From Liolophura sinensis (lineage: Eukaryota; Mollusca; Polyplacophora; Chitonida; Chitonidae): 64,000 nt of DNA. The notes beneath the pieces are model-generated. The model saw nothing but the letters and a program-made list of their open reading frames with translations, had not been told where the DNA came from and did no database searches. The stretch is from NCBI RefSeq assembly GCF_032854445.1, contig NC_088301.1, positions 29,560,402 to 29,624,401 of the forward strand. The letters are read 5' to 3'. Of this stretch, positions 4,541 to 60,373 are shown one piece after another. How positions within the stretch are numbered: the first letter of the stretch is position 1; every line of letters begins with the position of its first letter. Both the position numbers and the translations under genes were made by a program.

Positions 4541-25648
<21,108 letters not shown>

Positions 25649-33873: not shown

Positions 33874-34295
33874 AACAAAATGTGTCGTGTGTTCAATAAC
33901 CGAACTAAATTTACTCTCCTCGGATTTCTGCTATTGCATATTGGCAAAAACTAACTGTGCATTAATGTTTGGGAGACAGGATAGCTGTGAGGTGCTGTTC
34001 TTTGTGAACTGTTCAGACTGAATGCAGCTCGATGACAGCTTCACCACTTTGTCCATGTTCTGTTCTAGCTTACCCAGGACAGGCTAAAGTTGACCTGACT
34101 GCTGTCGTGGTTTTCCATTACACTGATGTCTATTGGCGCAGTGAGTCGATCGGCCCTTGCCATCAGTGTAAGGACTGCCAAATGGTCAGTACGCTCTGAA
34201 GCCTCTGAGCTTTAGAGTCGTAGATCAGATACTACTCGTAGGTCCTTTCTCATCGCCAGCACAGTAGGTAACATTCTTTGCACCAGGGCGACATC

Positions 34296-34589
34296 ATGAG
34301 CTCAGATGTATTATCTACGATATCTTCACCAGGTAACGTTACAGAGTCCGTGGAAAACTTTACAGACGAATATTTTTACGATTACGATGCCTCATTCACA
34401 ATTGCTGCAGAGGAGTTGGTACCAGTTGCTCTTGTTTACGGAACCACACTGATTCTTGGAATCATCGGTAATTCTTTGGTGATTCTCTCAGTAACCAGGT
34501 ACCGAAGAATGAACAACATCACGAACACGTTTTTGTTGGGCTTGGCTACAGCTGACTTACTTTTGCTTTTGACATGTGTACCAATTAAG
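34296..34589 (+). CDS. GPCR coding exon 1 (N-terminus, TM1, TM2)
   Basis: 98 codons starting MSSDVLSTISSPGNVTES. TM1 about 42-66, TM2 about 77-97. The ATG at 34296 is the first in this frame; the more upstream open sequence lacks ATG. Donor AAG|GTAAGT, phase 0. Confidence 0.9.
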
Positions 34590-37500
34590 GTAAGTGAATC
34601 TGTTCTAGATGAGTGGAATTAACAATAGCAAAGATATCCCTTTGAATAAACATCCATTTTGTTTAAACATTCCATACGTAACCACATTTCCAGACTTTGT
34701 TTTATAAAATATACATCCTCGACCCATATACAGAATTCTTCGATTCCTAGCCGCTTTACATATATTATCACAAAACATACTTATTTTCACGAGCACTAGT
34801 ACAGGAGCACTAAATACAGGAGCTCTAAATACAGAAGACAATACATTTATTACGCTATTTATATACTCTCCGCCTAGGGCTTTAGATTCGGCTATTTTTT
34901 TTTTTTTTTTTTACAAATACTTCTGTTTTAGACTGCGTTTATTTCTGTACCGGATATATATTTTATTCACCTTGACCTTCATTCAAGCAAATTAAATTCA
35001 AATGCACAGAATCGACATAAAACAGAACGCCGATAGAGCTATATACCTGTATGACAAGATTCTGTGCTGATGTTTAGATCTATCTATTTGTATGAGTTTT
35101 ATCATGTGTCAACTATATTCGTGTTTCATGACAGACTGAATAAAATATGAATTTGGAATGCGTTATATACTGACATTTATCAAAATCTGAACAAAGTAAG
35201 GACGGGCTGTGGATATTTCAATGTACCGAGCAGCAATAGAAACGCAGTTCTCAAAACTTAAGATATCAAGTCACTATAACGTCATGACTTCCTCAATGTC
35301 ACCAGCAAGAAGGGCCATGACAGCTGCCGGGCAATTTCGACATAAGATCGGTTCATCCGGGTCACTCATCCTAGGAACAGAACTCAATCAGCAACAAAAA
35401 CAGCGGCCTTAGTTCATGGACCAAAAAAAAAAAAAGAAGTAGAAAAAAACATGCACAAGCGTAAGGGTGGCGTCCATTGTATTGAAAGCCTGTCACTTTC
35501 CACCACGGGCGGTATCTTCCTTTGAAAGCGGGTCAATTGTAAACTCCTGCAGTAACAATTTCAAGAGCCATTTCCAGCCGTCAAACTGGCTGTTGCAATA
35601 AATAAGTGATTAAAGGGGATAAGGTTTGACTTCAGTTTGAAAAATAGCGAAAAATTCGGACTTGGCGTTTCTTTTGCTGTCAATATAAATACAATCAGCA
35701 TTTAGTCAGTGCAACACCAGCATTTTGCATGTGTCCATGCACAAATGCAGACAACGTATTAATTTGTCAGTTGCACGTATATATCTTTTACGTTGACCTA
35801 TCTGAGCTTTAACATACGTCTTTCGCTAATAGTCATATTATTTGTCATTATAAATTAATTAATGGTAAATAAGGTATAGATTTAAACTCATATTTTGTTA
35901 ACGTTTATTCGCCACCACGACAAGCTGTGTAGAGTCCTTGCCTTAATTTAATGATAACAGTATTTATTCTAAAAATCAAACAAAACCGTAATGTAGGTTT
36001 ATTTATTTGATTGGTGTTTTACGCCGTGCTCAAGAATATTTCATACGACGGCAGCCAGCAGTATGGTGAGAGGAAACCGGGCGGAGCCCCGGGGAAACCC
36101 ACGGTCATCTGCAGGTTGCCGAGGGATCTTCCCACTTACGGCTGGAATGAAAACCAGCATGGCCTGGACTTGCCGTTATGTAGAAATAAATCAATACAGT
36201 GCTGTAACTTGTTCGTTTACTACATTGCTTAATTAGATGTTTACCAAAATGTACGAGTTTATATTTCCATGTGTTTATATATAACTTGTCCTTTCATTGC
36301 TTAATTAGATGTTTACAACAATGTACGAGTTTATCCATTCCGACTGTCCTTATATTTATGCAGTAAAGCAATTATTTTTGTTTTGCAATATTAGCTTACA
36401 CTCTGTGTTGATCTTGAAGCTGTTCTTCAAGTAGGCCTATTTGTCCTGTGGCTTTGTATACCCTTGTGTGTACTAGACTGACTACATGCTATTTGAGTGT
36501 CACAGGCCAGGCCTGTCTCATGTGCAAAGTATTTTCCTTAGATTACTTTATAGGTTAATGCCGGGTCTCCTTTAGCTTCCAAAACCTGCGTCTTTCGTCG
36601 AATTGTTTGACTTGTATATTTGTACATCTGATCTACATAAGCTGACCATTCTGTGTAGACTGACTCTTAATGCGCGAAATATCGATGAATTAAGCATTCC
36701 CATAGACTGGTCAGTTTTCCTTCTTTTCTTGGGATTGTTTATTAAATGCAATAGTCTTCAAATTTTGTTGTATTTACCAAGAAAAGCTCAAACTATTGCC
36801 TCTCAGTCAATGTCAGACTTGTACGTGTGCTATTTATAGTGTTACAATGATTTGATTTGAAAAAGTGATAAATGCCACCCGCTTTGTTAAGAAATGTCAG
36901 GAACCTGTCAGGAACTGATTTTGAACGGTAACACATGCAGAAGGGAGGCTGACACCTTGTGAATGGTAAGTACTTGGGCTATTCTAAAATAACAGCAAAA
37001 CTTCCATCGGATTTGGGTTGATTGATTTTTTGTTGTTGCCAAAAATGCCCTCCTTAATGTCAAATACATGCATTGCATGGTGACGTAAATGACTTTAGGC
37101 GGATTTTTGTCACATATAACTTTCAGGGTTCATTACACACTAGGAAACTGAGCTCTGGTTATGGTAGCAATAGGCATTGTTTTGACAGGCTATGGTAACA
37201 TTTCAGGTCTCTCAATGCGTAGAAGGGGCCTCCGTGGCTCAGTTGGTTAGCGCGCGAGCGCAGCGCAATGACCCAGGAGTCTCTCACCAATGCGACCGCT
37301 GTGAGTTTAAGTCCAGCACATGCTGGCTTCCTCTCCGGCCGTACGTGGGAAGGTCTGCCAGCAACCTGCGGATGGTCGTGGTTTTCCCCCGGTTTCCACC
37401 CACCATAATGCTGGCCGCCGTTGTATAAATTAAATATTCTTGAGTACGGCGTACTCAACACCAACGTAAAACACCAATCAAATCAATAAATAAATCAATG

Positions 37501-40500
37501 CGTAGTATCAGTTTTGTTTTACAGACTCGTGATAATAGATCAGTCAAATCATGTCGTGTCATTAGATCTACTCCTGGCATTTTGTCTGTACAACCAATCG
37601 TAGAACCTGAAGATCGTTATGCTTCCAGATATGTTTATTTATTTATTGATTTATTCCACTGGTGTTTACACCGTTCTCAAAAATATTTCATTTATACGAC
37701 GGCCGCCAGCATTATGCTGAGAGGAAACCGGGAAGTGCCTGAAGAAATCCACGACCATTCGCAGGTTGCCGCAGTCTTCCCTCGTACGACCGATGAGGAA
37801 GTCAGCATTTTTTATTTGATGTTTGATGGCAGCTGAAGAGAATTTAAGGCTGACTTGACCCAGGTACAGTTTCCAAATTAAGGAGGAATCAAGGGCTATA
37901 TCGTTGTTCTGTAAGTCAAGCGTCCCCAGAGACTTTAACCTCAAAAATACAGATACATCAATAGTCTGGATTTTGTTGTCAGAAGCAAACAAGATTTCTA
38001 GTTTTTCTAAGCTATACAAAACCTCTGGAAATTCTGGTAACCCAGATCGCATTGTTGAGAGACTCTTAGGTCGCTGTGCTGCGCTAGCACGCCACTTCCA
38101 GATATAGATACAGAATATACATTCCATATTCCATACTGACTCACGTAACGAAGTGACTTAGTAAAACGTATCACTAATGACTAGATGTGAGTGCAACAAA
38201 TTTATAAATGAATAAATGATGATGGCATAACGTCACATCGGCAGTATTTCAACCATACTGTGGCGAAACAAATTTATACTCATCAGTAGCATTTGTATTG
38301 TGAGCTCCTTGATGTTGTGAATATCTAACTTTGGTGTCAGGATAACTGTCATGAAGTCAAAACAATGAAAACCATGATAATAATGAACAGGTATACCAGC
38401 CGTCAATCAAAATTGACAATCCGGCTCAATAATCACGAGGACAATCCCCAAAACTATGCTCAACACTCACCACCAAGGAACTAAGAAAATATACATAACA
38501 TACGAAATTAGGACGGAATCTTGTAAAGAGAAACGGTCATCAGTTTCATTGGTAATGGAAGGGCGGAATGACTGTCCATGCAGGCGAATGCATGAAATCA
38601 TAAGGCCTATTCAGAACGTTTACCATGCATATAAATTGTCGATAATATCATCGTTGTTCATTTCAGCTGCGAAAGATATTAATGTGACTCGGCTTTACGT
38701 AAGTTAGAAGACTTCGTTTGAACTTCCTTCGTAATATGCCGAAAAATGTAATAATTTTTATTCAGAAACCCATATATACATTACATACATGTAATGTATA
38801 CATAATACATCTACATCTCACACAATGGACTATTTTCTCTATCTTTCCTAGTTAATTTGGGTGCAGAAAGCGTTGCATTTTTAAATACATTCGTTGCGAT
38901 TTGTAAAAAAGGAGCTGTCCTAAAAAAAAAGAGCTATTTTTCAAAATGTACATCAAACTCCATCTATTATAAATTGCTTCGTGATCCCCTATGGACTATA
39001 AATGTGTCAAACTTTTTCCCATCCTGTGCGTTACCGGAATATTTGCCGAGAAAGGATTCATGTATCTTCATCAAGTTAGATAAAATTTCATATCTCTGCT
39101 CTTTGAGGAGCCCAGTGGAAAATGAACGGCACCATTTTCTCGACCGCCGGGCTACATTCAAATGGTCAAAATTTGGTTTCCAAATATTATATCGCCAAAG
39201 CTGATGAGTCAAATTTAGTGACGCTGTAAGTCTGGACTGACTGGTGACCCATAATAACGTACTGGAGTTTGATCGACTTAAATGGCGTTTCTCATAGTCT
39301 GCGTGGGTGGAGTTCATATTTGGCATATAACACAGGGCGATAGAGGCTGTTGAAGGACATGTAGTTCGCCACGTTGGGTCAGTTGCAGTTCAAGGGAAAC
39401 TAAGACACTTGTATGGACGTACAAGTTACCAGTATATACTAGTGCACGATTTGAAAACCGGTACTACGGGCCAAGATAGCATAATTGGTAGAGCGTCTCG
39501 CTTCCGGAGAGGTAGATCATTGATTCCAGGATCAATCCTGGGCCGAGTCACACCTAAGACGTTAAAAGAGGAAGTTGTCACTTCCTCGCCTGGCGTTCAG
39601 CATGAAGGGGATAGTGCAACGACTGGTTGACCCGTATCAGTATAATGGGCGGGGCGCCTTACTTGCCCTTTGGTAAGTCATCTCAGTGAATCAGCACTAG
39701 ATAAAAGAGCGATGGAAATCCGTCCTGCAACAAGGATTTACATACACCCTAAGGGTTCCTTCGTTGTCATATGACTGAAAAATTGTTGAGCACGACGTTA
39801 AACCCCAAACACTCATTCAATACCGGTAATGACTTCGTTCATTCGCCTTGAACATTTCTTGCGTCTTCCCAACATTATTGGAAACTGTTGATTGCTTCTC
39901 TTTGCATGATTCCATCCTAGTTTTGTACTTTATATCCTTTCTTAGTTCCTTGGTAGTTTGTGCTAAACGTCGTTTTGGGAATTGTCCTTGTGATTATTGA
40001 CCTGGAACTTACATACTGGCTGACGGCGGGTATACGAATGTCTATTTCGAAGCATAGACCTTTTGCAATATTTGATAGTTTCAGATCTAACGACATGCTT
40101 CTCGCATAATGCCGATTCTGTTGACTTTGTCAAAATTGTCAGAGCTTAAAGCGAGAGTAAGGTTTTATGTTTGGGTCAACCACATGTACTTTCACAGTTT
40201 TTATTACATCTTTATGAAACAACATGGGCTTGATGAGCATGCTTTGAAGATCTACGCGTGTTAACTTCGAAATTATATTGGGTAAGTCTGGACGAATTTC
40301 TTTCCATGTAGTCAATAGTAAGTTAGTCGAGTTAGCGCCACTTAAATATGAAATAATATCAGAATTTTGGCAAAACTATCAGGTTGTGATCTACTTGTCT
40401 TCTGTTGTTTGAATCCGTATGATTAGATTGACAAAGGAGTGGCTTGTGGGTAAAGAATAACGGTTTTGTATGGTCCTACAAATGTTCTCATGACCTTGTT

Positions 40501-43500
40501 TCTATGAAGTTTGCATTAAACGTGTGCTCATAGATCCGTTAGATAGTTGATTTCATATGGTGTGGAACTCTCGGGAAATAAAGGAGCTAAAGGCCTGACC
40601 ACATTAATGCTTTGTGATCGTCTGGTACAAAAGCATGTCCAAAATTATGGCGGCAAGGACTTTCAAGATCTGGAATCTAAACGTCAAGTCCGAAATCCGT
40701 GTACTTTACGTAAACCGTTCCAAAGGGCTTTCCAAATCGACAATCGCAAGGCCTATTTCCAAACCAAACTAAAACAAGAGATATGAAAGAAATAATACAT
40801 GAATAGTAAATGACCCCCTGGTTAATCGGAATTAGATACAACAATGGCACTGATCGCCTGAGATCCTGCACGGTCTGTACACATTTGCTAACAAATGTGT
40901 TACAGGACTCGTGGGAAGGTCAAGAGTAACCAAGCTTTGTAGTGGTAAAATGTTTCGTCCCCTGTATTAGGGAACTAGAGGAGTACCGTAGATGACTTTT
41001 TGAGATGGCGGTTGATCGTCCCAAGGCGATGGGATATCTATCAAGTACGAAAAGCAGTCTGACCATTACTAAGTTCTTGATCTAATCGTAGAGCCACATT
41101 CGGAGAACCATCCTTTAAAAACTCGACCCATTTAGATCCACGATAATGCTCGACCGAGCAGACCAAGCTTTTCGAGTTTCTTCATCAGGAGACCTTAGCA
41201 ACTACCCCATGGCCAGCTTGTAGCCCGAATGGGAACACCACAGAGCATATGTATGACTTTATTGGTCGTAGAATCCATCAAAGAGATACTGTCGTACAGA
41301 CTATAGCAGAATTGAATGCTAGTCTAGGAATGTCTGTTACTGACAACTTTAGACATTCAGGGATTTGTGTGACCTCCATAGCTTCTTAGCTATGTCACGA
41401 AGGGAGCCAGCAATGGTTAAGACTGAAGCACTAATATTCACAATATGGACAGATCTGTGGAAAGTCTCGTTTCCAGCGTCGGAATTAATAAATAATACAT
41501 AGCTTGCCATGTTACCCAACTCGGACAGGAGTTGCACACTGCTGAAAAACGAGGGGTCATAGGTCTTGATTTCTCAAAGCTTGGACAACTCCCGCTTACT
41601 GTGTGTTGTCTACGTGATTTGAATATGGTAAGCTACGTCATATTCATTCATTCCATTATTTAAGAAATAATATGGCTTTTTTGATAATTAATGAAACAAA
41701 ATTACCCTGCTACATGTATTACCATGGCCTTCATCCTGTCTCTCCTCCTTCTAGTCAAACGTGGGATCTGCTCATGTGTGCACGAGACCAGGTTTGAATT
41801 CTTTGGAGCATACTTCAGATAAGCTTGTCCTTCGTATTAAGCGTTTCGCAGTATAAAAAATCAACAGGTATTGGGAGCAGCCGGCAGTTGCCTACACAGA
41901 AAAACGTCGTTTGACCTTCCTCCTGTTGCTGAATATATGCATTCCGTTAGTTTTAATGGGGAAGTTTTCCTGAGTTAAACTTTGGCCTAAGCTGTACAGC
42001 CTGTGGTCCACTCCAGCTTTTGCCATGGCGATTTAAGGGTTAACGTAGTACTCATATAACACAAGAGAACAATGGTCCAGCCGGCTTTGGCCCCAGTTGT
42101 CAGGAATAGGAACCTCATTTTCACCAGATAATGTCGCCACTATACGGGTGCAATGTTGCCGAAGTGACATTATGCCATAATCATTGATTCATCACACAGC
42201 GTTCTTTTGATATATTATAAAAACGTGCCAGTGGCACTTTAAGACATGGTCCTTAATAATTAATAAACTTTTGGGAATTGCTCGTCCTCTAGTTCGCCCG
42301 TTCGTCAACATTTTGACATTGTAACAGGCTTGTCCGTGCAATATCGCCAGAATTAATGGACAAAATTTGATCAAATTTTATTGAAGCCTAATGACTAGGG
42401 CCTTAAGGATCTGGCGAACTTTTTGAGTTTCACGTCTGCTCCCTTCGATCCTTCGTCAGGACCATGGCATCGTTGGTGAGAATATAACCTGGTCATTGCA
42501 TTATCTCCAGAACTAATGGGCCAAATCTAATTAAATCTGGTTAGGAAGCTGAATTAAATAGGGCTGCCTGAACGACAGATTGCCTTCTTGGAGTATGTCT
42601 GTTCGTTCCTTTGGCCAGTGGTTTGATCCTTTCGTCCTATGTTCGAAGCAAGCTTCTCCTTGTACACCATTATCACCAGATTAAGAACTATATGTGAACT
42701 ATTAGTGTTAGTAACAAAACTGCATTTTGTTGGCCATTGCTCGTCAAGGGTGCTATTTCACTGGCAACATATCCCTATCCCTAACCCATTTCTGAGGTCT
42801 TATCATAAATAACTGGTAATTTCAGTTATTTTGCTTATTTCAGTTTTAAAGTGCAGGTAGAGTTGGCTATTGCCGAAAAACCCAGTTTTTGAAATTTCTT
42901 AGAAACTGTCTGGAGTGACAAATAACGTGCGATTTGTCCGTGTGATGAGTCCAGAGCTAATGAGTCAACTTTCACCAAGTTAATTTTGAAGTTTAATGAC
43001 ATAGACGTTAAGAACTGATCAACTTTGGAGACAGACGTTTGTCCTTTTATTTCCCAGGTAAACCGCGCCACCCATTTTGCACTTGACTTCAGCGATATGT
43101 TAGCTATAAACAGAAATAAATTACATTTCCCGGCGAGGAAATTGGATATAAAAGGCACCGTGAAACGAGTCTAACTCAAGCATTAGAGGGACGAGTTAGA
43201 ACCGCAACTACATCTAAAGCACATGCAAGATTGAAAGTAGGTCACACCGGTCAGACATTCTGATCGCTGCTAAGGTTCCCGGACGCCTCCCATCGACTCG
43301 GTTCTTTTGGGCCAGGCCAAACATTGGAGGTACCAGATAAAACTAAATTTAAATTATTGGACACTTTTCGCTCTGTGTAAGATAACCTGTCAGAAGTTTT
43401 ACCCGCTGGGTTTGACCCCGCCAGGCGCTGAGAAATTATTGCCCTCCAAGACTCTTGTAACAAGTGGACTGGCTCAAACATTTGTGGTACCGCATAAATA

Positions 43501-46500
43501 CGATGCTTGCTGAACAAGTGGGCTGGCTCAAACATTGGTGGTACCGCATAAATACAATGCTAGCTGAACAAGTGGGCTGACTCAAACATTGGTGGTACCG
43601 CACAAATACAATGCTAGCTGAACAAGTGGGCTGGCTCAAACATTGGTGGTACCGCATAAACACAATGCTAGCTGAACAAGTGGGCTGGCTCAAACATTGG
43701 TGGTACCGCATAAACACAATGCTAGCTGAACAAGTGAGCTGGCTCAAACATTGGTGGTACCGCATAAACACAATGCTAGCTGAACAAGTGGGCTGGCTCA
43801 AACATTGGTGGTACCGTATAAATACAATGCTAGCTGAACAAGTGAGCTGGCTCAAACATTGGTGGTACCGCATAAATACAATGCTAGCTGAACAAGTGGG
43901 CTGGCTCAAACATTGGTGGTACCGCATAAATACAATGCTTGCTGAACAAGTGGGCTGGCTCAAACATTGGTGGTACCGCATAAATACAATGCTAGCTGAA
44001 CAAGTGGGCTGGCTCAAACATTGGTGGTACCGCATAAATACAATGCTAGCTGAACAAGTGAGCTGGCTCAAACATTGGTGGTACCGCATAAATACAATGC
44101 TAGCTGAACAAGTGGGCTGGCTCAAACATTGGTGGTACCGCATAAATACAATGCTAGCTGAACAAGTGTATCATGTATGATTCACACTCTCAAAATGAAC
44201 ATTTGTAGGGGAAATTCTGAAAAAGTTGTCCCTTAATGCAAATCTGTGCTGTAAAAGTGAAAATAAACTGTGCTAGGCCTTTTACCCCATACATACGTTA
44301 TTCTCGACAAATACTTCACTCAGAACGTAAAACGGCCTTTCTTCCTTCAGCGTAGATTATGCCCTCATGTCGCAGCCATCTTTGTGATCAGGCAATACAC
44401 ATCCCAGAGTATGCTTATATATACAGCTCGCTGTTGAGTGTATGATTATTTTGTGGTTACTTCTTGTTAAGATATAGGACTAGGTTTTGTTATCCTTATT
44501 AAGTCATTTTCTCAAGGTAAAACTGATTTATATATCATGTGTAGATTTCCTGTGTGCGTGCACATGTACTTGTCGTTTTCACATACGTGTGTTATAAAGC
44601 TTCTGTGACGAAAGCAGGATTTTAGTTTTAGCAAACTTAAGGGATTATCGCAGCCATTTAATGTAAACGGTCCTAATGATTGGTTTAATGGTAACCAGGT
44701 GGTGACATTTCGTGTAGCGAGGTCTCCCAATATATGCCCTACTAACTGTCTTCTGAAGCTTGCACCATCACCAACCCCCCCGCCAACAAAAAGGAGCTTA
44801 GAAGCAAATTAGTTTTGAATGTCTGGAAAGTTAACTTCATCAACTTTATCGGAATTTCAGACCGAGTGAACGCAGTGGATATAAAAATGCTTTTTATGCG
44901 AGGTAATCTTCTCTCAAACAGCGTATACGTATCAGATAGCATAGGATTTGTTTGATATTTCCAGTGTTTGACCTAGCCTAATAGTTACAGAGTTACAGAG
45001 AGTCAGACGGGGTCAATGTCATTTGCGTCTCAGCATCATACTTGTTCAGAGCGCATTCGATTTATCCAGCACTTGTAATACCATGTTCAAAAAGGCCTTC
45101 AGAAAAAATCTACCCTACATTGCTCGCATAGTGAACAAAAGTCGCATTTAGTTTTTCTTCCTTTCAGCATTGATGCCAGAACTAAGACACGTCTCGTCCA
45201 TTATCCAACCTAACCAGGGGTAAAACGCCATGTGCACGTGTTACCCACTTGTTAAAAGGTGGCGTACGTGGCCTCAGGAAGATATGGAATTACCATTTGG
45301 GAAGCAGCGTCAATAACCCATGAGCAGTAGAGTAACAGAGCTTAGAGTGAATGATAGAAGGATTTATTTATTTATGAACTATCACCACAGCTGTTACAGT
45401 TGTGCAAATGCTAAATGTCTTCTATCAGTTCTGTGTATTCTGTTATGACTAAAGCAGTAATAAAATTATTCATTCCTGTGTATTACACTGCAATCTGATG
45501 TATCCATACTCTCAACAATGCTGAAAAGATGGAATTGTGTCTAGTATGACCGGTAAAAGAATTCCAGTATCTATGCGTGTGTACTTGTTTCTAAGTACAT
45601 CACCTTTCTTTCGCACGTGTATTTATTCATTTTTTCTCTATACTATTGCTTGCGTATTTGAACATATTATGGACTATAATATCTGAAATAAGCACGATAA
45701 TAAAAAATATTTTTTATTTACTCTCGATGTTTTACGTATACCTGGTCATTAGTTTTATTCGTGGAGGAAACCAGAGCTGTCTGGGGAATTCATTGATCGT
45801 TGTTACTGTATTGTTTACTCTTGCCTTGGCGATGATGTATAGTAGGCGATGGCGTTTAATAGGCGATGGCGTTTGGTAGGCCACGACGTTCAGAAGGCGA
45901 TGGCGTTCAGTAGGCGATGATGTTTAGTAGGCGAACTGGCAACGCACTACTCAAGTCACAGTGGAACGGCTAAATTGGTAGCACTCATGTTAGGCTTTAG
46001 CCTCCTAATGAAGGCCAAAGATCGGGATCTAACTCCATGCACCTGGTACTTGGACACATACTTGATCCCAAGTGACGTTTAAACACAAATTATTACGCTT
46101 TGAAGATCAGTTTCTTGCAGTAACACAAAATCAAAATACATAGCAAAATTGGGATATTTTGCGTTTTATTATATTCTCTTTCCCATTTTTTTTCACTGTA
46201 ATAATTATTTTGGAAATGGATTTTGCAATTACTGATTTGGAATGCCCCATTGATTTATTTATTTCATTGGTGTTTTACGCTGTACTCAAGAATATTTTAC
46301 TTATACGACGGCGGCCAGCATTATGGTGGGAGGAAACCGGGCAGAGCCCAAGGCAAACCCACGGCCATCCGCAGGTTGCTGTCAGACCTTCCCACGAACA
46401 ACTGGAGAGGAAGCCAGCATGAGTTGGACTTGAACTCACAGCGACCGCATTGGTGAGAGGCTTCTGGGTCCTTACGCTGCGCTCGCGCGCTAACCTGCCG

Positions 46501-49500: not shown

Positions 49501-52500
49501 TTTCGACCACATCCGCATGATACATGATTTAAATCCACAACAATTTTGTTAAAATCTGAAGTAAAGGGTATAAAAAAAGTAATTCACAGCATACCTTATC
49601 AATAAGATCCATAGTACAATCCAAACATTTGAAAACAAAGACAACATAAAACATATATAACAATATTTATAAGATTTATTTTATATTTTCTTTTCCTTTA
49701 AACATATCTTGCAAAATTTTATGATCTCGGTTACTGATATTAACTGATAATTCCTATGGCCACCCTTGTTATTTAGAGCTGAAATATTTACCCACGATAG
49801 CGGAACTATGTGGAAAAAATGTATCTATTGAATTGTACACCTTGCAAGGTGCGAACGATATGACGTGTTTGGAGTTCTAAAATATAAGTGTCAATCGTTT
49901 TAATGGGACAATATCCCCATTTTAGGAAACATGGATGGCTGGAACCAATCAAAATACAAAGCAGAGATTAGTGGATGATGAAGAAACATGAAAAATACAA
50001 AAGAGTATCCAGACGGCCACAAACACGTCCAGCATGGTTTATAAAGGCTACAATCGATTTTAGGAGGGTGTAAAACGTGGAAAGAAGTATGCTAACAAGT
50101 ACATTATTACAAGCCTTCCCAAAGTAAATGGAAGACCATGATGCGAATGTAAATCTACTCTGTTGATAATGACTGCTTTGTTCTGCCAAATTACCTGTAA
50201 TGAATCCGATGATATTTTGACATTTGCTCTACGGAAATCAGGATTTTTTTTGTAGGGTGAGAAAATTTGAATTTTCGAGCTGAGGGCTTTGATTGTTTTG
50301 CATACCTAGGGGGCGTCTCTTGAGCTGGTAGGGGATGGAATTGGTTTCAGGCTGCATCCAGGGAAGGTTCGGCCAAGTCTAAACGACTTGAAAAGACATT
50401 ACCTTGTGGACACCGTATCCAATTGGGACGAAATTAGCAGAGAATGAGCTATCCATGCTGCAGACGAGGCAACCGTGGAAAGACCAACACTTCGTTTCCG
50501 GCAGCTATTATGAACTGTGTCAGAAGAATACCTCCCGGAAATGAAGTCGAGTGGGGTAAACTTAACCGAATATCGGACAGTGGTCAAGCATAAGAATGTG
50601 ACCATCCAGCCACTACGTACGAGATGAACATGTAACGAGAGAGGTGTCAAGACATCTTGTTTGATCTAGTAAGGCCATCGGGCGTATTTGGTATTAAAAA
50701 CCAGCTCTGCCATGCATTCTTCGATTTCCGCCGTGGTTATCTCGCCACATATAGAATAATTTGTTTGCGTTTCTCTGACACTTCATTTCGTATCACATGA
50801 ATGAATTTATACAAGCTCTCATACACATTCACCAAATGACCAATTTATCGGATATTACTAGTCAATTAGATTCAATTTCAGATACTTTCAAATTGCCCGC
50901 TGGAGATATTTTTTTAATAATTTTTTAATATAGTATCACTATTTTCTGATCTATTTCATGTCAAGTGTTTTATGTAAAGCGTCCATTTAAATTTTACAGG
51001 TATTATGTGAAGCGTTCTATTTCATTTTTACAGGTATTATTGAAGCGGGTTTTTTCCACTTGTACAGGTTCATGTATTATGTAAGGTGTTTTATCTAACT
51101 TTTACAGCTAGCATGCACAGCCTCCTATTTCACGTTGGCAACTATTATGCCCTGCGTTTTAATTCAGTTTTACAGGTATTAAACGATGTGTTTTATTTCA
51201 CTTTTATAGGTATTATGCAATACTGCATCCCATCAAGGCCAAGTACAAATGCACTAAGGGAAGAGCAAGACGTGCTATCATTGGAATTTGGCTTCTGTCA
51301 TTCGTTCTTGCTGCACCGGTGCTTCACGTAAGGGTATGTATATGAATATTTTTGTTTGGGTTTTAATTGGAACTTGCCGACCGTTTACCGTTGAAAATGA
51401 TGCGCAAAAGGGGAAATGTGGGACAAATGACGCAGGCAGAGTGGTATCTCTGTAAAGCAATGGCATGGTTTCATAAGTCCCCGTTTTTAAAAGCTTGGTT
51501 GCCATGTTTAATATCTGAAAACGTAGGACACTTACAAGCTTTACAACTTTTGTGAGAAAGGATAATGGCTGGCATTCTGAGGACCACAATTGCAAACTGT
51601 AGTCCAAGGACTCGCACATTATAACTAGTCGCGAAGAAAAGAGAGAAATTGCTATAGAATATAAAAGGCTAGAGTACACAGAGTAAAACTAGTGCAGCGG
51701 GGGCAGTGTGATAATGGGTATTACCAGTGAAATTTGTTCACTTGCAAATTTACCTCAATCAGAGTTCTATCATGACTGTTTATATAAATGCTTAAAAAGT
51801 AGCTTCTAAAGTTAAATGACAAGTTATGTTATAGCTGGTACTACAGTTTTATACACTGAACAAAAAAAAGAACCTTCACATTTGGAGAATATTGAAAATG
51901 GGGAATATGGCAAATATAATAATGGCCCGGTCTAACCTGACGCATGCGATCAGTGCAGTTGTGGTGCATTCAGCTAGCTTTTTTTGTGAAAAATTGACCC
52001 TGCACTTGTACAAGCTCACGTGACGACCGTTTCTTGCGGCTGAGCACCAAGACGTGTGCATAATTTGCTGGTTAGAAAAAAACACGCTATCATTGAGGGA
52101 TAAACAATTCTCAATCCACGCCTTACAAATGTTGAATGTGAACGTGCAGTCGGCATGCTCCGTGCTGGCCAATCTGCTGTGGCTGTTTGCACCTGAGATA
52201 CAGCAGACGGGCAATTCACAACCCGAGAACACGTGTACATCAAACGGATACGACATCTGATCGCCCCCAAGTCAGGACGTCCGCGTGTGACGACACATGA
52301 CAAGGAGAATTAAATTCAACTACGTCATTTATGTAATCGTTTTACGACGGCAGTGCCAGTCAGTAACGTACTGTTTAGGGCTCGAGTGACTGACCAGACC
52401 ATACGAAGCCGCTTGCACGCTGCCCATTTTCATGCCCAACGCCCTTACGATTCTGACACAAGTAAATCGGAACCAGAGACAATGGAATAAGGCTGTGTTA

Positions 52501-55500
52501 AGAGGGTATTAATGCCATGGAGTGACCATTGAGATCACCTGACCCCATTCCCACTGAACACGGATGGGTTGCTCTTGAAAGACGTCTTCGTGCCTTGCGA
52601 TGTCAAGGCTGTTCAAGAGCTGGGCGCCTTGTAGGTACAGCAATGGCGCAGGTTGCCTAATGCTGTGTTCATGGGTGTTAGACAGCCAATCAGACAAAGT
52701 TGCCTTGCTGTTGTGAATGCGAGAGATAGGCATACGCCATGCTGAACAAGCTACAATACAGATTGCTGGTCCCTGTGAAATCATAAAAGTGAACCCTTCA
52801 TGCTACTGTTGACTGTGCAGGGTGTACTAATCGCATCTCTTTGCCTAATTTTGTTTTAGTGTTCACTCATTACGTCCATGAACCAGATTTATCCACTAGC
52901 AACAGGCTTTATTATATACGGGTATGTCTGGAACATAAAGTAACACATGCGGCCAGGTAATGTATTGTCATTCTCCGCAGTCACTAAGTATGAAATATCA
53001 GGAATGATGAATACGGGAACCAGTGTAGCGTAAAGTTGCCTGAAAGCTATCCCTTTTCTACCCCTACAGGTTAGAGTGTATAATGAGCCATCACATTGGG
53101 TTGAAGCGTTTCTGTGATATCAAACTAGCCAAGTCGGTTATGTACAACGAGGCACAGTCTTGAATCAAATATTTGACATGGACATGAAGGGATTCCAATC
53201 ACTGATTGTTTTCTGTCTGTATGGTTTTATCCAACACATTAGGAGCACGGCATCCGGGCAGCCGCTATGAATAATCAAGAAAAAAGATTTGATTTCTTGG
53301 GACTCGACACAGTCACGCTACACAGGGATTTAGGTTTATGTCGATGTACTCGTCAATATGCATTAAGAATTTGACATTCAGTTCTCGGAGAACGGATATC
53401 CCTAAAATTGAACGATATACTTTCAATAATATGAATTCCATAGGAAGTCTTTTACAGGGGATGTTTTAGCGGATTGAAAGACTTAAATCGTCTTTGTATT
53501 GTCATGAATTCTCAAATCTCTATAATGGTAAGAATTTCAGGTTTATCAGATGCATCAGTAAACCTGTTACGGTGAAGACTTTGCGTAAAGGCATGTCTTT
53601 GCCACTACCTGTGAGGAGAATTACCCAAGTGTGGTTTTTGTCATGAAATTTATATCGTGTATTCATTTACATGTAAACATTTTTCACATGTGTTGTTGTT
53701 GTTGTAATGGTTCAATGCGATAAAGCAATGCCGCATAGTTGCAGCATATATGGCAAAGAGCGAGTCATAGTGTCATGTGCAAATAAGTAAAGCTATATAA
53801 CTAAGCAAGGTTTCGTAGAAAACCATCTGTAGTGTCAGTTTAAAAGTTATGATTTCTGGGGCCGCTTGCACAAAGGGATCGTAAGCATAAGTTTGTAAAT
53901 CACTATAAGAATTATTAAGTTTGTAAATCAATAAGATCTCGACCGTTGTCTTAGCTTACAATCGACACCCTCTTGCACCAAAAAGCAGAAGTAACTTTAC
54001 AATCACCAATTACAATCGGGTCAATCCCGTTGTAAAATATTTTCAACTGCCCCAAAATCAACGCAAAGTACAAATACTACGTCAGATAGACTGTTAGTTA
54101 GGTTATTGAACAATAAATATGCTTTAGTTTATTTTCCAAACATACCCATACCGAACAAAGTGTGTTGCTAGAGGATAAATCTAGTTTATGGACTGAGTGT
54201 ACACTAAAATAAGAATAAACATTAAGCTGCGCTTGGTGGACCCTTCACAGTCAACAGCGGCATAACTGAATCACTTTTTTGATTTAGCCATCTGAAACTA
54301 GCCATCTGTACTGGAGCTTTTCCAGTACCGTGTATGCCCACCTCTAGCATTCACAAAGGCAAGATGACGTTGTCTCATCGACTGCCTAACACTCGTGAAC
54401 ACAGCATTACGCAACATGCGCCATTGCTGTACCAACATGGCGCTCAGTTCTTGAACATTTTGAGGTTGACGTGTAAAAGCATGAAGCCAAGATCCCTTAC
54501 GTGTTGGAAGCGATTGAGATCAGGTGATCTCGATGGCCATTCCATGACGTCAATACCCACATTTTGCGGAATATCTCTCGTTGTAACAGCTGTGTATGGT
54601 GTCGCATTGTCATGTTGGAATTGAAGGCCTGTACCATGAGAATCCAAGAACAGTACCGGCTCCGGGACCTGTACCTGGTCACTATATCCCGCGCATTGAA
54701 GTCGGGTATGATCTGGGCAGTTACACGACGTCTAAACAGTACGTTGCTGGTTGACGGTGCGGGAGTAAAACGATTAACGTAAAAACGATGACGTATTGGT
54801 TGAATTTGATTGTCCTCGACATGTGTCGTCACATATGGCCGTCCTGACGTGGGGCGATCAGATGTCGTACCCGTTTGATGCACACATGTCCTCAGGTTGT
54901 GATTTATTTACTGTCCATTTACAGCCTTTCATGGCACGTGCAACAGCGAAAGTAGACTGATCAGCCTGGAGTACGTCAACTCCACGTTAACGTTCAACAT
55001 TTGTAAGACTTGGCTTGAGAATTGTTCTCTCAAGGATTCTTGGCGTGTTTTTTTCCTAATCACCAGCAAATTCTCAGACACATGTGACATTACACGTGAC
55101 GTCTCTTATTCACAAAAGAGCGTACTGAATGCACCTCGTGTGGATCACCACAGTTTTTTTCTTAAGTGTACCTTTCGACTGGGTTTCCAAAGATGCGTAA
55201 TGCAATTGTCTCAAAAAAATGCTGCGAACATATTTGTCATGTTGTTCTTTACTGCTGGATAATTATGATGTAGAACTCTTGAAAATAAAAGCAAGAAAAG
55301 TTATTGACCGGCACATCGTCCATCGGCAGTAACTTCAAAAATTCTTATGTGCAAGCCACCCAACTTATTTGAACAATCATTTGTAAACTCAATTGTAGGA
55401 TCTACAATCGATTGTAGCTACGATGTCTTTGTGCCCTGGACCTCTGAAACAGCGAACATTTATATCATCTTAAACGTCGCCAATACTTCGTCGTTCAAAA

Positions 55501-58032
55501 AGCATGATTCAGCAAGTAAATCCATAGTTGAACCCGTAAATAACATTAGATACATTAATATTTATTTTGTTTACAGATGTTGAGAGAAGTTGGCCATTAC
55601 CGGAAATCGTTCTGGTGCCAGAAACAGTTCACAAAACCAATTTACCACCAACTCTACGAAATCTACATGGCTTGTATTTTACTGCTTATACCTGTTACCG
55701 TTATGAGCTTTGCTTACATAAGCATCTGCAAGGAATTGTGGGCAATGACCTTCCGTAGATCCGAGATGCGCAGTGGAGGGTACGTATGAAAAGCAACAAA
55801 AATCAACATTTACCAGGATGTTTTTACCGGAATCTTAGAACACCAGAAAGAAATAAATATAGACAAAAAGATTGACGTAATGGTTAAAAATCAACAATCC
55901 TAACTTGAACTCGCTATACATGTGTTAAAATAAAGTTTAACGAAAGCCTGGTAATAAAAAGTTAAATTTGCAACATTTTAACTCGACTGTACAAAGTACG
56001 CTCAGGGATCGCTGTCCAATAATAGTTAAAGAAATGTTAAAGGTAGTATCTTAAAAAGTCTTGCATGTATTGAGCTCAAGGTTTGAGACATATAAAGCAC
56101 AATGATGCGAGTGGGTGAGTGGGTTGGGTTGACTGTGCCTGTTTTGTATTGGAATCAATGTTTGGGGTTCTGTTTCAAAGTACCGCATATACTGAACCGT
56201 GGTTTTGCATACATACAAAACACAATAACACGAGCTCAATGTCGCATCGGTGATGCCCCTATGTGTATACTGATTCCTGTAAATCACAAAGTTTCTTGTC
56301 TATTTTGTGTATTAGAATCCATGTGAAAGTAAATGTTTATAGGTATTTTATGTTTGAGTTGAAGCTTTGCATCTACAAAATATGTTTATTATTATTATTA
56401 AATAGGTCGTTTCAGTGGAATGCTCTTTAAACTAAAAATATATTTCTTTTCCCTTTTGCGACAGAGGTATTTTATTCTCACTTGAAATGAATGTAAACTA
56501 ACACCATATCTTGGTGCAAAAATCAAATTTTGAGTTGTTGGGTAGCTGTACCAGTGCAGCGCATTTGATCCAATTTACCTCGCGCCCAAACCTTTAGACC
56601 GTGGAGAATATCCTTACATTGAATTAAAAACTATTTCGACATGGAGAAAACCTTTTTGCTGCAGATAAAATTATTTGCACTGGGGGAGAAAACTTTCGGC
56701 GATGTTTTCCGAAGTGTTTCGCTGAATTTGTCGATGCATCTTTAACATACTGAAATCCGCCGGACGCGCCTACTCACTGAAGCTATTATGCCTCCATGTA
56801 GAAAAATGTGGACGTCATGTCGTCAAAATAGGAATCTTTTAACACCTCAACATATTGCATGGCCACTGTTAACAGAGAAGTTAATTTTCTTCTTGTCCAG
56901 ACCGCCGAAAAATATTTAACCTCTTGTGTGTAGGCACTGTGCGCTTCATTATGAGTTGAGACGGCATTACGTCATAAGACGTCATAAGACGTTATAACAC
57001 GCACAAAATAATTTTGATTTACTCTATCTCATTGTTTTTTATATGACCTGACAAGACATAAAATATATGCTAGATAAACAAATCCATTTAACAGAGTCAA
57101 CGAAGCGTTCTCTCCTAAAATCTACTGAATATTTGTAGGTGTACATATAACTCCGTGTTCCTCTAAATTTCCAGGATCAAGCTTGAGAAGTTTGATGGTA
57201 GGAGAAAAAAGAACTCGTACAGCCCACCACTCACTGAAACAGCCCCGGTATTAAGGAAGAGTGGCTTTAAATATTCCTCCGAAGACGATAAGACGCGGAA
57301 ACAGGTAGTTTTTTTGGTTTTAATTTTCGCCGAGATTTCGTTTGAAATCTCGAAGATCTAATATCTATCTCATGCAAAACAGGAAATGGAATTGAACAGT
57401 ATGATTTTGGTGAAAGAAATGTGGTCATCTGTGATAACAGAGGAAACCTAAGAAACTATGACAGGAAATGGTTTTTATTTGCGTAATGAAGCTTACTATG
57501 CTAAAACGTAGACAGAATTCCGTTTTCATTTATAAAGAATGATTGCCAAACATCTTACCTCATCTCGCTTCCAGTATGGTTTTTTTTATCATTGTTGTAG
57601 GTGATCAAGATGTTGGTCTCGGTCATTGTGCTCTTTGTACTCTGTTGGGCACCTATACTGGTCAATAACGTTCTAGTATCGTTCTCTGTGCTAAACGAGC
57701 TAAACCGTGGGTACCTTAAACCAATGAGGAAAGCCTTCTACATTCTAGCCTACGGCAATAGCTGCGTGAACCCAATTGTGTACGGTTTCATGTCCAAAAA
57801 CTTCCGTGAAACGTTCAAGCACGCATTATGTAGTTGTGTGCGTGGTTGGTCTTACGTCAGGAGAAAGCAGTTCAGTCGACAGAGCTCAATACAGTCAAAA
57901 ACTACACATCTTGAGCTTACCGGAATCAGCAGGGCTGATTTCAAGCCTCACGCCTCCGCCTCTGAAGTCAACCACGAGCTTCGTGATGATGCGGTTTATG
58001 ATTCGGATGGACCAATCGTTGAATACCTCTGA
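34296..58032 (+). CDS. Rhodopsin-class peptide GPCR (6 coding exons, 434 aa)
   Basis: Exons 34296-34589, 49060-49181, 51210-51333, 55577-55779, 57175-57304 and 57601-58032 join in phase to one frame. The N-terminus has two N-glycosylation sites (N14, N21) and an acidic Tyr stretch (DEYFYDYD, 24-31). Landmarks: GN at 58-59 in TM1, LATAD with D87 in TM2, C114 before TM3 pairing with C194 in extracellular loop 2, ERY 138-140, W166 in TM4, FVLCWAP 303-309 in TM6, NPIVY 348-352 in TM7, then helix 8 and cysteines 368/370 fit for palmitoylation. All are diagnostic of class A receptors. The HPIKAKYKCT and CWAPILVNNVL blocks suggest the neuropeptide group near trissin, TRH, orexin and CCK receptors. 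Which one, I cannot say from memory. Expected at the plasma membrane, G-protein coupled. The C-terminus VEYL could be a weak class III PDZ ligand. Upstream non-coding exons are possible. Confidence 0.93.
35998..36175 (-). mobile_element. 5'-truncated SINE family A, minus strand
   Basis: Tail, GATTGGTGTTTTACGCCGTG, and body as far as ACCAGCATGGCCTGGACTTG. The head is missing and TTATAC is lost from the CACTTATACGACGG block. Confidence 0.9.
36222..36340 (+). repeat. Short tandem duplication, 73-bp period
   Basis: CATTGCTTAATTAGATGTTT, ACCAAAATGTACGAGTTTAT is followed 73 bp later by the same text with ACAACAATG. Two copies only. Confidence 0.8.
37223..37494 (+). mobile_element. Full-length SINE family A with 11-bp TSD
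   Basis: Complete head (GGGGCCTCCGTGGCTCAGTT), body and AAAT tail. Flanked by TCAATGCGTAG at 37212-37222 and 37495-37505. The 3' end has a small internal duplication of the GTACTCAACACCAACG type. Confidence 0.97.
37629..38096 (-). mobile_element. Chimeric SINE carrying LRRC40 exon 13
   Basis: Read on the minus strand: a SINE head piece (GTGCTAGCGCAGCAC, then GAGTCTCTCAACAATGCGAT), then LRRC40 exon 13 from its first base, its donor position and about 65 bp of intron 13. The intron runs without a break into the SINE body (ATGCTGACTTCCTCATCGG), and tail (AAATATTTTTGAGAACGG, then AAAT). Only the short SINE segment around the B box is replaced. The structure fits reverse transcription of an LRRC40 pre-mRNA that read into the intronic SINE, with a template switch onto another SINE's head. 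Confidence 0.85.
37789..38042 (-). pseudogene. LRRC40: LRRC40 exon 13 plus partial intron 13, retro-copied fragment
   Basis: The exon part is 37855-38041. By eye it is roughly 85-90% identical to the parent, with the LEKLEILFASDNKIQ core intact. The GQVPPELGNC end has been changed by small indels, which break the frame. The donor GTAAGT is now GTCAGC. Intron sequence (GCCATCAAACATCAAAT) follows, so this is not a copy of fully spliced mRNA. The match starts exactly at the exon 13 boundary. It lies antisense in GPCR intron 1 and cannot be expressed as part of that gene. Confidence 0.92.
39464..39821 (+). mobile_element. Full-length SINE family B
   Basis: tRNA-like head with A box TAGCATAATTGGTAGAGCG and B box GATTCCAGGATCAATCC. 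A body of about 230 bp follows (GAAGTTGTCACTTCCTCGCC, GGGGCGCCTTACTTGCCC, GAGCGATGGAAATCCGTCC), then CATATGACTGAAAAATTGTT, GAGCACGACGTTAAACCCC. ACCGGTA lies on both sides and may be a short target duplication. Fragments occur at 8.6, 11.0 and probably 46.0 kb. Confidence 0.9.
42306..43065 (+). repeat. Degenerate tandem repeat, about three units
   Basis: Three diverged copies of a block with TTGTCCGTGCAATATC-type, CCAGAACTAATGGGCCAAAT-type, GAAGCTTAATGACATAGGGC-type and GACGTTTGTCCTTT-type parts start near 42330, 42507 and 42915. The order is kept but identity is low. No tail, tRNA boxes or coding frame. Confidence 0.6.
43461..44170. repeat. 54-bp minisatellite, about 13 copies
   Basis: Unit: AATGCTAGCTGAACAAGTGG, GCTGGCTCAAACATTGG, TGGTACCGCATAAATAC. 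The copies differ at few sites (GGGC/GAGC, AAAT/AAAC). Both strands stay open for about 190-235 codons because the unit is divisible by three. A diverged single unit (AAACATTGGAGGTACCAGAT) sits about 130 bp upstream at 43320 and may be the ancestral seed. Confidence 0.97.
45843..45927 (+). repeat. 17-bp minisatellite, five copies
   Basis: Five units of TAGGCGATGGCGTTTAA type, each exactly 17 bp, with changes mainly in the last three bases. Confidence 0.85.
45958..46100 (+). mobile_element. Decayed SINE, probably family B
   Basis: A tRNA-like head is visible (GGCTAAATTGGTAGCAC and GATCGGGATCTAACTCC). The end GATCCCAAGTGACGTTTAAA resembles the family-B tail. Most of the body is missing. Confidence 0.5.
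46250..46523 (-). mobile_element. SINE family A, minus strand, C-run at the head
   Basis: Complete tail and body. The head ends GTTCGGCAGGTTAGCGCGC and a run of about 16 C (on +) replaces the usual GGGG start. GAATGCCCC before and GAACGCCCC after suggest the target-site duplication. Confidence 0.92.
46753..46853. mobile_element. MITE-like element of about 101 bp
   Basis: Ends CCTGGGCCCAGTTTCACAAA and, on the other strand, CCAGGGTCCAATTTCACAAA. A second inner inverted pair ATACGACATT / TTTGTCGTACGAC adds to the hairpin. There is no coding capacity. Confidence 0.75.
49060..49181 (+). CDS. GPCR coding exon 2 (ECL1, TM3)
   Basis: Residues 99-138 plus two bases: WQFGEILCKLVFYFQNVSA and TTMSMER. 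The conserved TM3 cysteine and the start of the ERY motif lie here. Acceptor TTTCCAG|TTG, donor AAAG|GTAAGA. Confidence 0.93.
49182..51209 (+). other. GPCR intron 2
   Basis: No repeat is recognised until the last 250 bp, where the 34-bp acceptor array begins. Open frames here are short and look like chance. Confidence 0.65.
50966..51217 (+). repeat. 34-bp tandem array of 3' splice sites, seven units including the real acceptor
   Basis: AG positions fall at 50999, 51033, 51067, 51107, 51175 and the true 51209. Spacings are 34, 34, 40, 68 (34+34) and 34. A seventh unit at 51141 has lost its AG. Each unit reads TTYTATTTCAYTTTTACAG followed by GTATTATGTGAAGCG, so it carries a pyrimidine tract, the AG and the first eight bases of exon 3 (G TAT TAT G). 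I infer duplication of the intron/exon boundary. Confidence 0.9.
51210..51333 (+). CDS. GPCR coding exon 3 (ICL2, TM4)
   Basis: Completes R139, then YYAILHPIKAKYKCTKGRA and IGIWLLSFVLAAPVLH. Two good donors, CAC|GTAAGG at 51327 and AGG|GTATGT at 51333, both keep phase 0, so residues V179-R180 may be optional. The acceptor TTATAG is the last of a 34-bp tandem series of acceptors. Confidence 0.88.
51857..52835 (+). mobile_element. Degenerate Tc1/mariner-type transposon, plus strand
   Basis: The left end is ACTGAACAAAAAAAAGAACC. The right end is close to GTTGACTGTGCAGGG. In broken frames: an N-terminal helix-turn-helix region (SAVAVC), the SGRPRVTTHD linker, IQLRHLCNRFTTA, then a gap, then SPDPIPTEH, the remains of the WPSRSPDLNPIEH catalytic block. 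Several stops and a deletion of the central DDE region make it inactive. Confidence 0.8.
53859..53985. mobile_element. Possible small inverted-repeat element
   Basis: GGCCGCTTGCACAAAGGGAT, CGTAAGCATAAG on the left faces, on the other strand, GTGCAAGAGGGTGTCGATTG, TAAGCTAAG. The resemblance is partial and the ends are uncertain. Confidence 0.35.
54235..55170 (-). mobile_element. Degenerate Tc1/mariner-type transposon, minus strand
   Basis: Same family as the copy 2.4 kb upstream. On the minus strand it has TSGRPYVTTHVEDNQIQPIR, FRRRVTAQII, QHDNATPYTAV and EWPSRSPDLN, in frames broken by stops and shifts. The catalytic block is better kept than in the other copy. The end near 55150-55170 matches the poly-A-like ACTTAAGAAAAAAAC left end. 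Confidence 0.85.
55577..55779 (+). CDS. GPCR coding exon 4 (ECL2, TM5)
   Basis: MLREVGHYRKSFWCQKQF gives the second loop with C194. YMACILLLIPVTVMSFAY is TM5 with its proline, followed by ISICKELWAMTFRR. Acceptor TTTACAG|ATG, donor GG|GTACGT. Confidence 0.93.
55780..57174 (+). other. GPCR intron 4
   Basis: Contains two units of the dispersed unclassified repeat near 56.0-56.3 kb. The remainder shows nothing recognisable. Intron 5 (57305-57600) is short and plain. Confidence 0.65.
56036..56340 (+). repeat. Dispersed unclassified repeat, two units
   Basis: GGTAGTATCTTAAAAAGTCT, TGAGCTCAAGGTTTGAGACA and AAGCACAATGATGCGAGTGG, then a second unit GTTTCAAAGTACCGCATATA, AAACACAATAACACGAG and GGTGATGCCCCTATGTGTAT. 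The block order is the same as at 20.4-20.9 kb. Confidence 0.7.
57175..57304 (+). CDS. GPCR coding exon 5 (third intracellular loop)
   Basis: About 43 hydrophilic, basic and Ser-rich residues (IKLEKFDGRRKKNSYSPP, then KYSSEDDKTRKQ) with no membrane segment. It is supported by splice sites (TTCCAG|GAT, ACAG|GTAGTT) and by phase. Skipping it would remove 130 nt and break the frame. Confidence 0.82.
57601..58032 (+). CDS. GPCR coding exon 6 (TM6, TM7, C-terminal tail)
   Basis: VIKMLVSVIVLFVLCWAPIL is TM6, AFYILAYGNSCVNPIVYGF is TM7, SKNFRETFKHALCSC is helix 8 with two cysteines. A Ser-rich tail follows (RQSSIQSKTTHLE), ending PIVEYL and TGA. Acceptor TTGTAG|GTG. Confidence 0.95.
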   Translation: MIKMLVSVIVLFVLCWAPILVNNVLVSFSVLNELNRGYLKPMRKAFYILAYGNSCVNPIVYGFMSKNFRETFKHALCSCVRGWSYVRRKQFSRQSSIQSKTTHLELTGISRADFKPHASASEVNHELRDDAVYDSDGPIVEYL

Positions 58033-59152: not shown

Positions 59153-59625
59153 TACATTCCATGCTCGAGGTTTTGTCGAATTAAAATAGGGATGAAGGGG
59201 AGATGTTTATCAACATGTGGAATTACCATGCTCTCTTTCCATACCATTGGTGAAGGATTATTGACAAAATGTTACCAACATACAACATAGTGTCAATTAA
59301 ATTTTCTATTTATTCCAATATGCCAAATAAATCGCGGTAAAACACTGTCACCTTCCGTGAAGGTAAACTCATTCGTACAAACACATCCATTCAGTAAATG
59401 AGACAACATCTGGATTCAGGAGAACAGATTCTGACCACAATGTAATCGTTAATACACCAAAGAGGTGACAAGAATCTGCGAGAGTAGGCGAGACTGCCGA
59501 ACGACAACTTTTTGGCGCTGTGTCACCATTTTACAAGCAATTGCACTTTGCATTAGGAGTAATTTCCATGATATATACATGTAGTGATGAGATATGTCAC
59601 GACTGAAGAAAAACGTCTGAAGATG

Positions 59626-60111
59626 CACATGTAGCTTTGCCGATTGATGTACATGTAGCTTTGACGATTGGTGTACATGTAGCTTTGACGATTGATGCAC
59701 ATGTAGCTTTGACGATTGGTGTACATGTAGCTTTGCCTATTGATGCACATGTAGCTTTGACGATTGATGTACATGTAGCTTTGACGATTGGTGTACATGT
59801 AGCTTTGCCGACTGATGTACATGTAGCTTTGCCGATTGATGCACATGTAGCTTTGACGATTGGTGTACATGTAGCTTTGCCGACTGATGTACATGTAGCT
59901 TTGACGATTGATGTACATGTAGCTTTGCCTATTGATGCACATGTAGCTTTGACGATTGATGCACATGTAGCTTTGACGATTGATGTACATGTAGCTTTGC
60001 CGATTGATGTACATGTAGCTTTGCCGATTGATGTACATGTAGCTTTGACGATTGATGTACATGTAGCTTTGCCGATTGATGTACATGTAGCTTTGCCGAC
60101 TGACGTACATG
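59626..60111. repeat. 24-bp minisatellite, about 20 copies, left part
   Basis: Unit GATTGATGTACATGTAGCTT then TGCC, with two-state variation at several sites (GTAC/GCAC, GACG/GCCG/GCCT, GATT/GACT). Because 24 is a multiple of three, long repetitive open frames run on both strands. The array continues at 60374 after a SINE. Confidence 0.97.
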
Positions 60112-60373
60112 TTTTTTTTTTTTTTTTTTTTGATTGGTGTTTTACGCCGCACTCAAGAATATTTCACTTATACGACGGCGGCCAGCATTATGGTGGGTGG
60201 AAACCGGGCAGAGCCCGGGGGAAACCCACGACCATCCGCAGGTTGCTGGCAGACCTTCTCACGTACGGCCGCCAGCATGAGCTGGACTTGAACTCACAGC
60301 GACCGCATTGGTGAGAGACTCCTGGGTCATTACGCTGCGCTAGCGCTTTAACCGACTGAGCCACGGAGGCCCC
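60112..60373 (-). mobile_element. Full-length SINE family A inserted in the 24-bp array, poly-A tail
   Basis: Flanked by TGACGTACATG at 60101-60111 and 60374-60384, a target-site duplication of array sequence. On the minus strand it is complete from GGGGCCTCCGTGGCTCAGTC to GTGCGGCGTAAAACACC. Its tail is about 20 pure A, not (AAAT)n. A small deletion removes part of the CCGGAGAGGAAG block. Confidence 0.97.

Follow-up and report, generated by a model that had tools for sequence, protein, structure and literature searches.

Double template switching by LINE reverse transcriptase has been described for the MGL/Mg-SINE/WEIRD elements of Magnaporthe and for the tripartite B2-U6-L1 retroelements of the mouse, in the portion of that report considered here (PMC2104539). 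Chimeras of L1 with mRNA are ascribed, in the sections of a second report that we drew on, to cis- or trans-splicing (PMC13174262). Replicative template switches at sites of imperfect similarity have also been described, including one between Alus in opposite orientation, according to the part of a third report used here (PMC6902434). A partial survey of the literature, consisting mostly of titles and the openings of abstracts, yielded no report of a SINE with an internal captured exon. Here we analyze such a structure in a window of 64,000 nucleotides from Liolophura sinensis. The published assembly, which was named Liolophura japonica, comprises 632 scaffolds and 609,495,693 bp, and the available part of its description counts 85,584 SINE copies making up 3.24% of the genome (PMC11068029). 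The species name of that assembly was later corrected to Liolophura sinensis (PMC12441733).

The SINE family was defined by a consensus built from 20 copies and an alignment of 110 stretches. Its copies are short and dispersed and have the head, the body and the A-rich tail in common, as expected of a tRNA-type SINE. The look of the head suggests a tRNA origin; a scan of the window with ARAGORN gave no tRNA. We considered and dropped a clean microhomology (GGTT) with a tRNA-like B box, as the consensus at that place reads GCTGTGAGTTC. The consensus of the head contains GTGAGT at nt 77-82, a possible 5′ splice site in the sense orientation.

The parent locus is a leucine-rich repeat (LRR) gene on the plus strand, whose LRR exons were found in the window. 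From its sequence the gene is presumed to be LRRC40, and the numbering of the parent exon as exon 13, flanked by introns 12 and 13, is assumed here after the preliminary description of this DNA. The exon encodes part of the LRR domain and occupies 23294-23480, with the acceptor TTTTCTTTTTTTCAG/GTTACC and the donor AAG/GTAAGT; intron 12 upstream of it has a polypyrimidine tract. The following intron begins at 23481-23525 and runs into a plus-strand SINE at 23526-23705 that is 5′-truncated at consensus nt 96 and retains its tail. The likely target repeats of this intronic SINE are ATCAAACGAAAA at 23514-23525 on its 5′ side and ATCAAATAAAAA at 23706-23717 on its 3′ side. Repetitive ORFs that resemble minisatellite arrays and are open in several frames occur at 17409-17795, 19218-19972, 22271-23035, 43436-44180 and 59553-60314, the first three of them within the span of the LRR gene.

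The copy is part of a minus-strand unit, 38105-37622, that lies between perfect 11-bp direct repeats: the 5′ target-site repeat ATATCTGGAAG at 38095-38105 is matched at all 11 positions by the 3′ repeat ATATCTGGAAG at 37622-37632, a duplication absent from the preliminary description. The first repeat is followed by a SINE head at 38045-38094, corresponding to consensus nt 24-73 with the first 23 nt missing, which differs from the consensus at 10 of 50 sites (8 of 39 outside CpG). Three junction bases, TGG, come next at 38042-38044; they are either the last SINE bases before GTGAGT, where the consensus has GCT, or untemplated, or the last G is the acceptor G of intron 12. The copy of the LRR-gene exon starts from the exon's first base and fills 37854-38041, and the donor position with 45 bp of the next intron, ending in ATCAAATAAAAA, fills 37809-37853. 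The SINE resumes at 37808, its body and tail (37808-37634) matching the consensus from nt 96 onward and ending in an AATAAA-type 3′ tail. Alignment and consensus matches thus bear out the order that had been claimed, namely a SINE head, the exon from its first base, the donor, the intron and a SINE body; the retained intron stands too, at 45 bp rather than about 65. A target-site duplication round the whole unit together with a 3′ tail is what LINE mobilization by target-primed reverse transcription (TPRT) leaves behind, and both may date from a SINE that was there before the exon arrived. The copy cannot work as an exon because the acceptor AG is absent, the donor is changed (GTCAGC; parent GTAAGT) and a 1-bp insertion is present. 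No exon shuffling resulted at this locus, where the copy is antisense to the neighbouring gene.

The exon and intron stretch of the copy (37809-38042) is 88% identical to 23293-23525 over 234 bp. Upstream of the exon, copy and intron 12 agree at only 11 of 60 bases in an ungapped comparison, so the similarity stops at the acceptor, and the flanks of copy and parent do not match. A segmental duplication, the rival that the preliminary description had set against its own account, is ruled out on these grounds, and the retained 45 bp of intron rule out a processed pseudogene. Searching the Liolophura sinensis genome (609,464,459 bases, 632 contigs) with the exon-intron stretch returned the parent and the copy only (2 candidates, both scored), in a search where a missing match does not prove absence; adding intron 12 to the query gave 61 rows, and the 59 beyond parent and copy matched a repeat within that intron. 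The copy lies in inverted orientation at a distance of 14,284 bp from its source. A random insertion this close would have a chance of 4.7e-5, taken as a fraction of the genome, a figure to be read in the light of the case having been found within one window, a mode of discovery that favours a near source.

The junction between intron and SINE is inherited from the parent, as had been claimed. Right before its SINE body the copy carries ATCAAATAAAAA, the form of the parent's 3′ target repeat, and parent and copy share rare changes within the first 45 body columns. Both contain the motif CTCATC, which none of the 95 others that are informative has, and both have a spacing two bases shorter than usual (7; normal 9), seen in 0 of 69 others; three others gave 6 through an early stop of the search pattern. 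These counts come from the sample of 110 SINE stretches, parent and copy included, which is non-random, most of its members having been chosen because they resemble the body or the head of the copy. A SINE subfamily with parent-like changes as the source of the 5′ body was rejected on the same counts. The changes C19T (26 of 95) and G51A (15 of 97) are common among SINEs and were given little weight. As the copy has the parent's form of the target repeat before its body, the sequence points to a parent SINE that was in place first, from which the copy would have taken intron, target repeat and SINE start. The direction, from gene to SINE, is firm owing to the shared body changes; the A-rich target repeat alone would be weak.

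The rest of the body tells a different story from the claim that only the head had been added. Differences of the parent SINE from the consensus recur in the copy at 6 of 16 sites in columns 0-55 and at 1 of 26 in the next 99 columns (Fisher p=0.008), a comparison that assumes the parent's 3′ changes not to be nearly all younger than the capture and could fail if most of them postdate it. A model with a breakpoint is best at column 57 (lnL -175.9; whole inheritance -181.2, no inheritance -183.0), ahead by 5.3 and 7.1 lnL units, respectively, in a scan by steps of three columns in which breakpoints from 21 to 78 lie within 2 units. A breakpoint before about column 45 is unlikely because of the shared deletions, which places the switch at about 37765-37737 of the copy. 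We therefore assign 37754-37808, with CTCATC and two shared 1-bp deletions, to the parent's intronic SINE, its 3′ limit being uncertain over that range, whereas the remaining body and tail (37633-37753) probably do not derive from it; the evidence for this second part is good, not overwhelming. Plain BLAST extends the parent match through the whole SINE at 80% over 404 bp. When only the body is compared, ten of the window's other SINEs outscore the parent's SINE, which is 69.0% identical to the copy. A second SINE in the parent intron (23777-23943) showed by eye no changes shared with the copy's 3′ body, but, its sequence being near the consensus, it may still be the source of that part. Taken together, the head and the 3′ body of the copy are compatible with a single colinear SINE, of which they represent nt 24-73 and the part from about nt 150 onward. 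Both ends of the unit thus seem foreign to the parent, as if a SINE had its middle, about 70-95 bp, replaced by about 290 bp of the neighbouring gene. A change of SINE inside the body is probable.

The recipient site has a second SINE on the plus strand (37225-37494), tail to tail with the copy across a 140 bp spacer, and the inverted SINE pair that it forms with 37634-38094 may be a break-prone site. Plus-strand ORFs with matches to rhodopsin-type GPCRs flank the copy at 34272-34622 (start of the profile) and 57601-58032 (end of the profile); the two probably belong to one gene, which would place the copy inside its first intron. Another inverted pair in the window, 52016-52404 and 54497-55072, is 74% identical, and its ORFs resemble, as judged by eye, a decayed transposase of the Tc1/mariner type.

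Recurrence was examined with motif patterns that need exact matches and overlook old copies such as the present one; they therefore bound a rare class and do not exclude it. A head-body motif pair at a gap of 291-351 bp (normal 116) was found at 43 places, of which 40 were fetched; of 60 full-length SINEs in the sample, 24 have the pair, and it would miss the copy itself. None of the 40 fetched loci has the structure of the copy. SINE pieces that overlap in the consensus account for 38. At one locus (L101; G000:C4:24647670-24648510) the SINE is split by a MITE-like dispersed repeat, seemingly with terminal inverted repeats, which gave 48 match rows with 40 of 1465 candidates scored. At the other (L110; G000:C7:56924940-56925780) the insert contains a long hairpin, and about 9 bp of SINE (AACCTGCAG) are repeated, by eye, on either side. 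The further copies with the same head-exon junction that the preliminary description had proposed to look for were thus not found by these partial patterns. Its suggestion of a general exon-mobilizing mechanism is not supported: the partial searches gave no second case, and the copy is 14.3 kb from its source, a proximity not predicted by random retroposition.

We lean towards an origin of the copy by template switching at the DNA level, locally and into a SINE that was already resident; with locality weighed most, we find this reading somewhat more probable than its negation. A SINE would have been resident first on the minus strand, in the intron of the apparent GPCR gene. In one event, its middle part would then have been replaced by the segment from the LRR gene, which begins with the first base of the exon, continues through the 45 bp of intron and ends within the first part of the intronic SINE. 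The event may have been a template switch at the DNA level, similar to MMBIR or FoSTeS, or a break repair that started in SINE similarity and finished by end joining, possibly with help from the inverted SINE pair. The breakpoint at the exon start could be due to chance or to an effect of the polypyrimidine run just upstream. A nearby source and similarity at a junction are the marks of such a switch, and the locus has both, with the source at 14.3 kb and SINE-SINE similarity at one junction; at the other, between head and exon, at most 1-2 bases are shared.

Several observations count against this DNA-level reading. It gives no reason for an event to begin exactly at the exon's first base, or for an in-register start at the GTGAGT of the SINE. 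A shell older than the insert would speak for the DNA-level reading, and the divergence points that way, but the difference is not significant: 20 changes at 127 non-CpG sites of the shell compare with 11 at 124 sites of codon positions 1 and 2 (p=0.12), with 15 of 180 when the changes of the left body are added (p=0.07) and with 26 of 232 when every difference in exon and intron is counted (p=0.25). If the shell is as old as its 15.7% divergence per side implies, survival of the repeat at 11 of 11 positions is expected in about 2% of cases, and in 13% at a divergence of 9%.

A double template switch during LINE reverse transcription, from SINE RNA to the LRR pre-mRNA through similarity in the body and on to a SINE head, would have made the 11-bp repeat in a single insertion. 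The perfect repeat enclosing the whole unit and the SINE-gene junctions on both sides agree with this route, and tripartite chimeras with repeats of 14-16 bp are described for a fungus and the mouse in the part of the report drawn on here (PMC2104539). An RNA-level switch would, however, be expected to insert at a site unrelated to its source, and the two sites are 14,284 bp apart. The junction at the exon start is again a coincidence, and the 40 loci above hold no further example. We regard the double switch as possible, on balance unlikely.

The exon start would be explained by a spliced RNA in which the GTGAGT of a SINE head acted as the 5′ splice site, spliced in cis or in trans to the acceptor of the exon, with reverse transcription and a further switch inside the SINE body to follow. 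In the ungapped register, the consensus GTGAGT stands exactly where the copy passes to the first base of the exon, two of the listed genome places have a head reading GATCTGTGTGAGTT, and a splice donor marks the end of 6 among 17 L1-mRNA chimeras in the portion of the study consulted (PMC13174262). Nevertheless, the three bases before the junction are TGG and not GCT, from 14.4 kb up to the exon a single SINE piece in sense orientation occurs (21367-21515) and it lacks a head, and locality is left unexplained. A pattern for heads that break at the donor found 4 places in the genome, all of them deletions internal to the SINE, with the low sensitivity of a search that sees a random junction in about one in ten (0.75 to the 8th power) and needs an exact head besides; a control break three bases earlier gave 10 places, of which 8 are plainly small SINE-internal indels and 2 are unclear. 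A donor-mismatch pattern with a gap of 169-229 bp, likewise of low sensitivity, gave 0 places. We thus hold the spliced RNA to be improbable. A variant in which the spliced SINE-exon RNA was held near its site of transcription and reverse transcribed into DNA 14 kb away, a local pickup of exons based on splicing, strikes us as quite doubtful. The route first proposed, in which reverse transcriptase primed on the tail of the parent SINE in the pre-mRNA and switched once to a SINE head, accounts for the inherited intron-SINE junction and for the continuous BLAST match, but fits the mosaic body poorly beyond about column 57, as the lnL and window comparisons above indicate, leaves the locality aside and is very improbable.

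Overall, the case looks like an accident of local copying, not like a general route by which SINEs move exons. If one of the RNA readings were true, ordinary SINEs could carry exons together with their splice context. As the case stands, the SINE seems to have given a small, local error of copying a place to land and dock, and the locus warns against reading a target-site repeat round a chimera as a sure sign of the joint arrival of all its parts.

Within the portions of the three reports considered here, each known system matches the copy in part. The fungal and mouse chimeras resemble it in having three joined pieces, a SINE among them, within one target-site duplication; unlike them, the copy has outer pieces that fit one colinear SINE, a middle of unspliced single-copy gene sequence and a source 14 kb off (PMC2104539). 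The L1-mRNA chimeras share with it the target repeats and a retroelement-exon junction that falls at the position of a splice site, whereas in them L1 stands 3′ of an exon that terminates at a donor, and in the copy the element is a SINE, its head precedes the exon at the acceptor and the intron is retained (PMC13174262). The microhomeology junctions have in common with the copy the template switching, the inverted orientation and the repeat similarity at one junction; they belong to rearrangements of disease scale, whereas here the change is a replacement of about 290 bp inside a SINE (PMC6902434).
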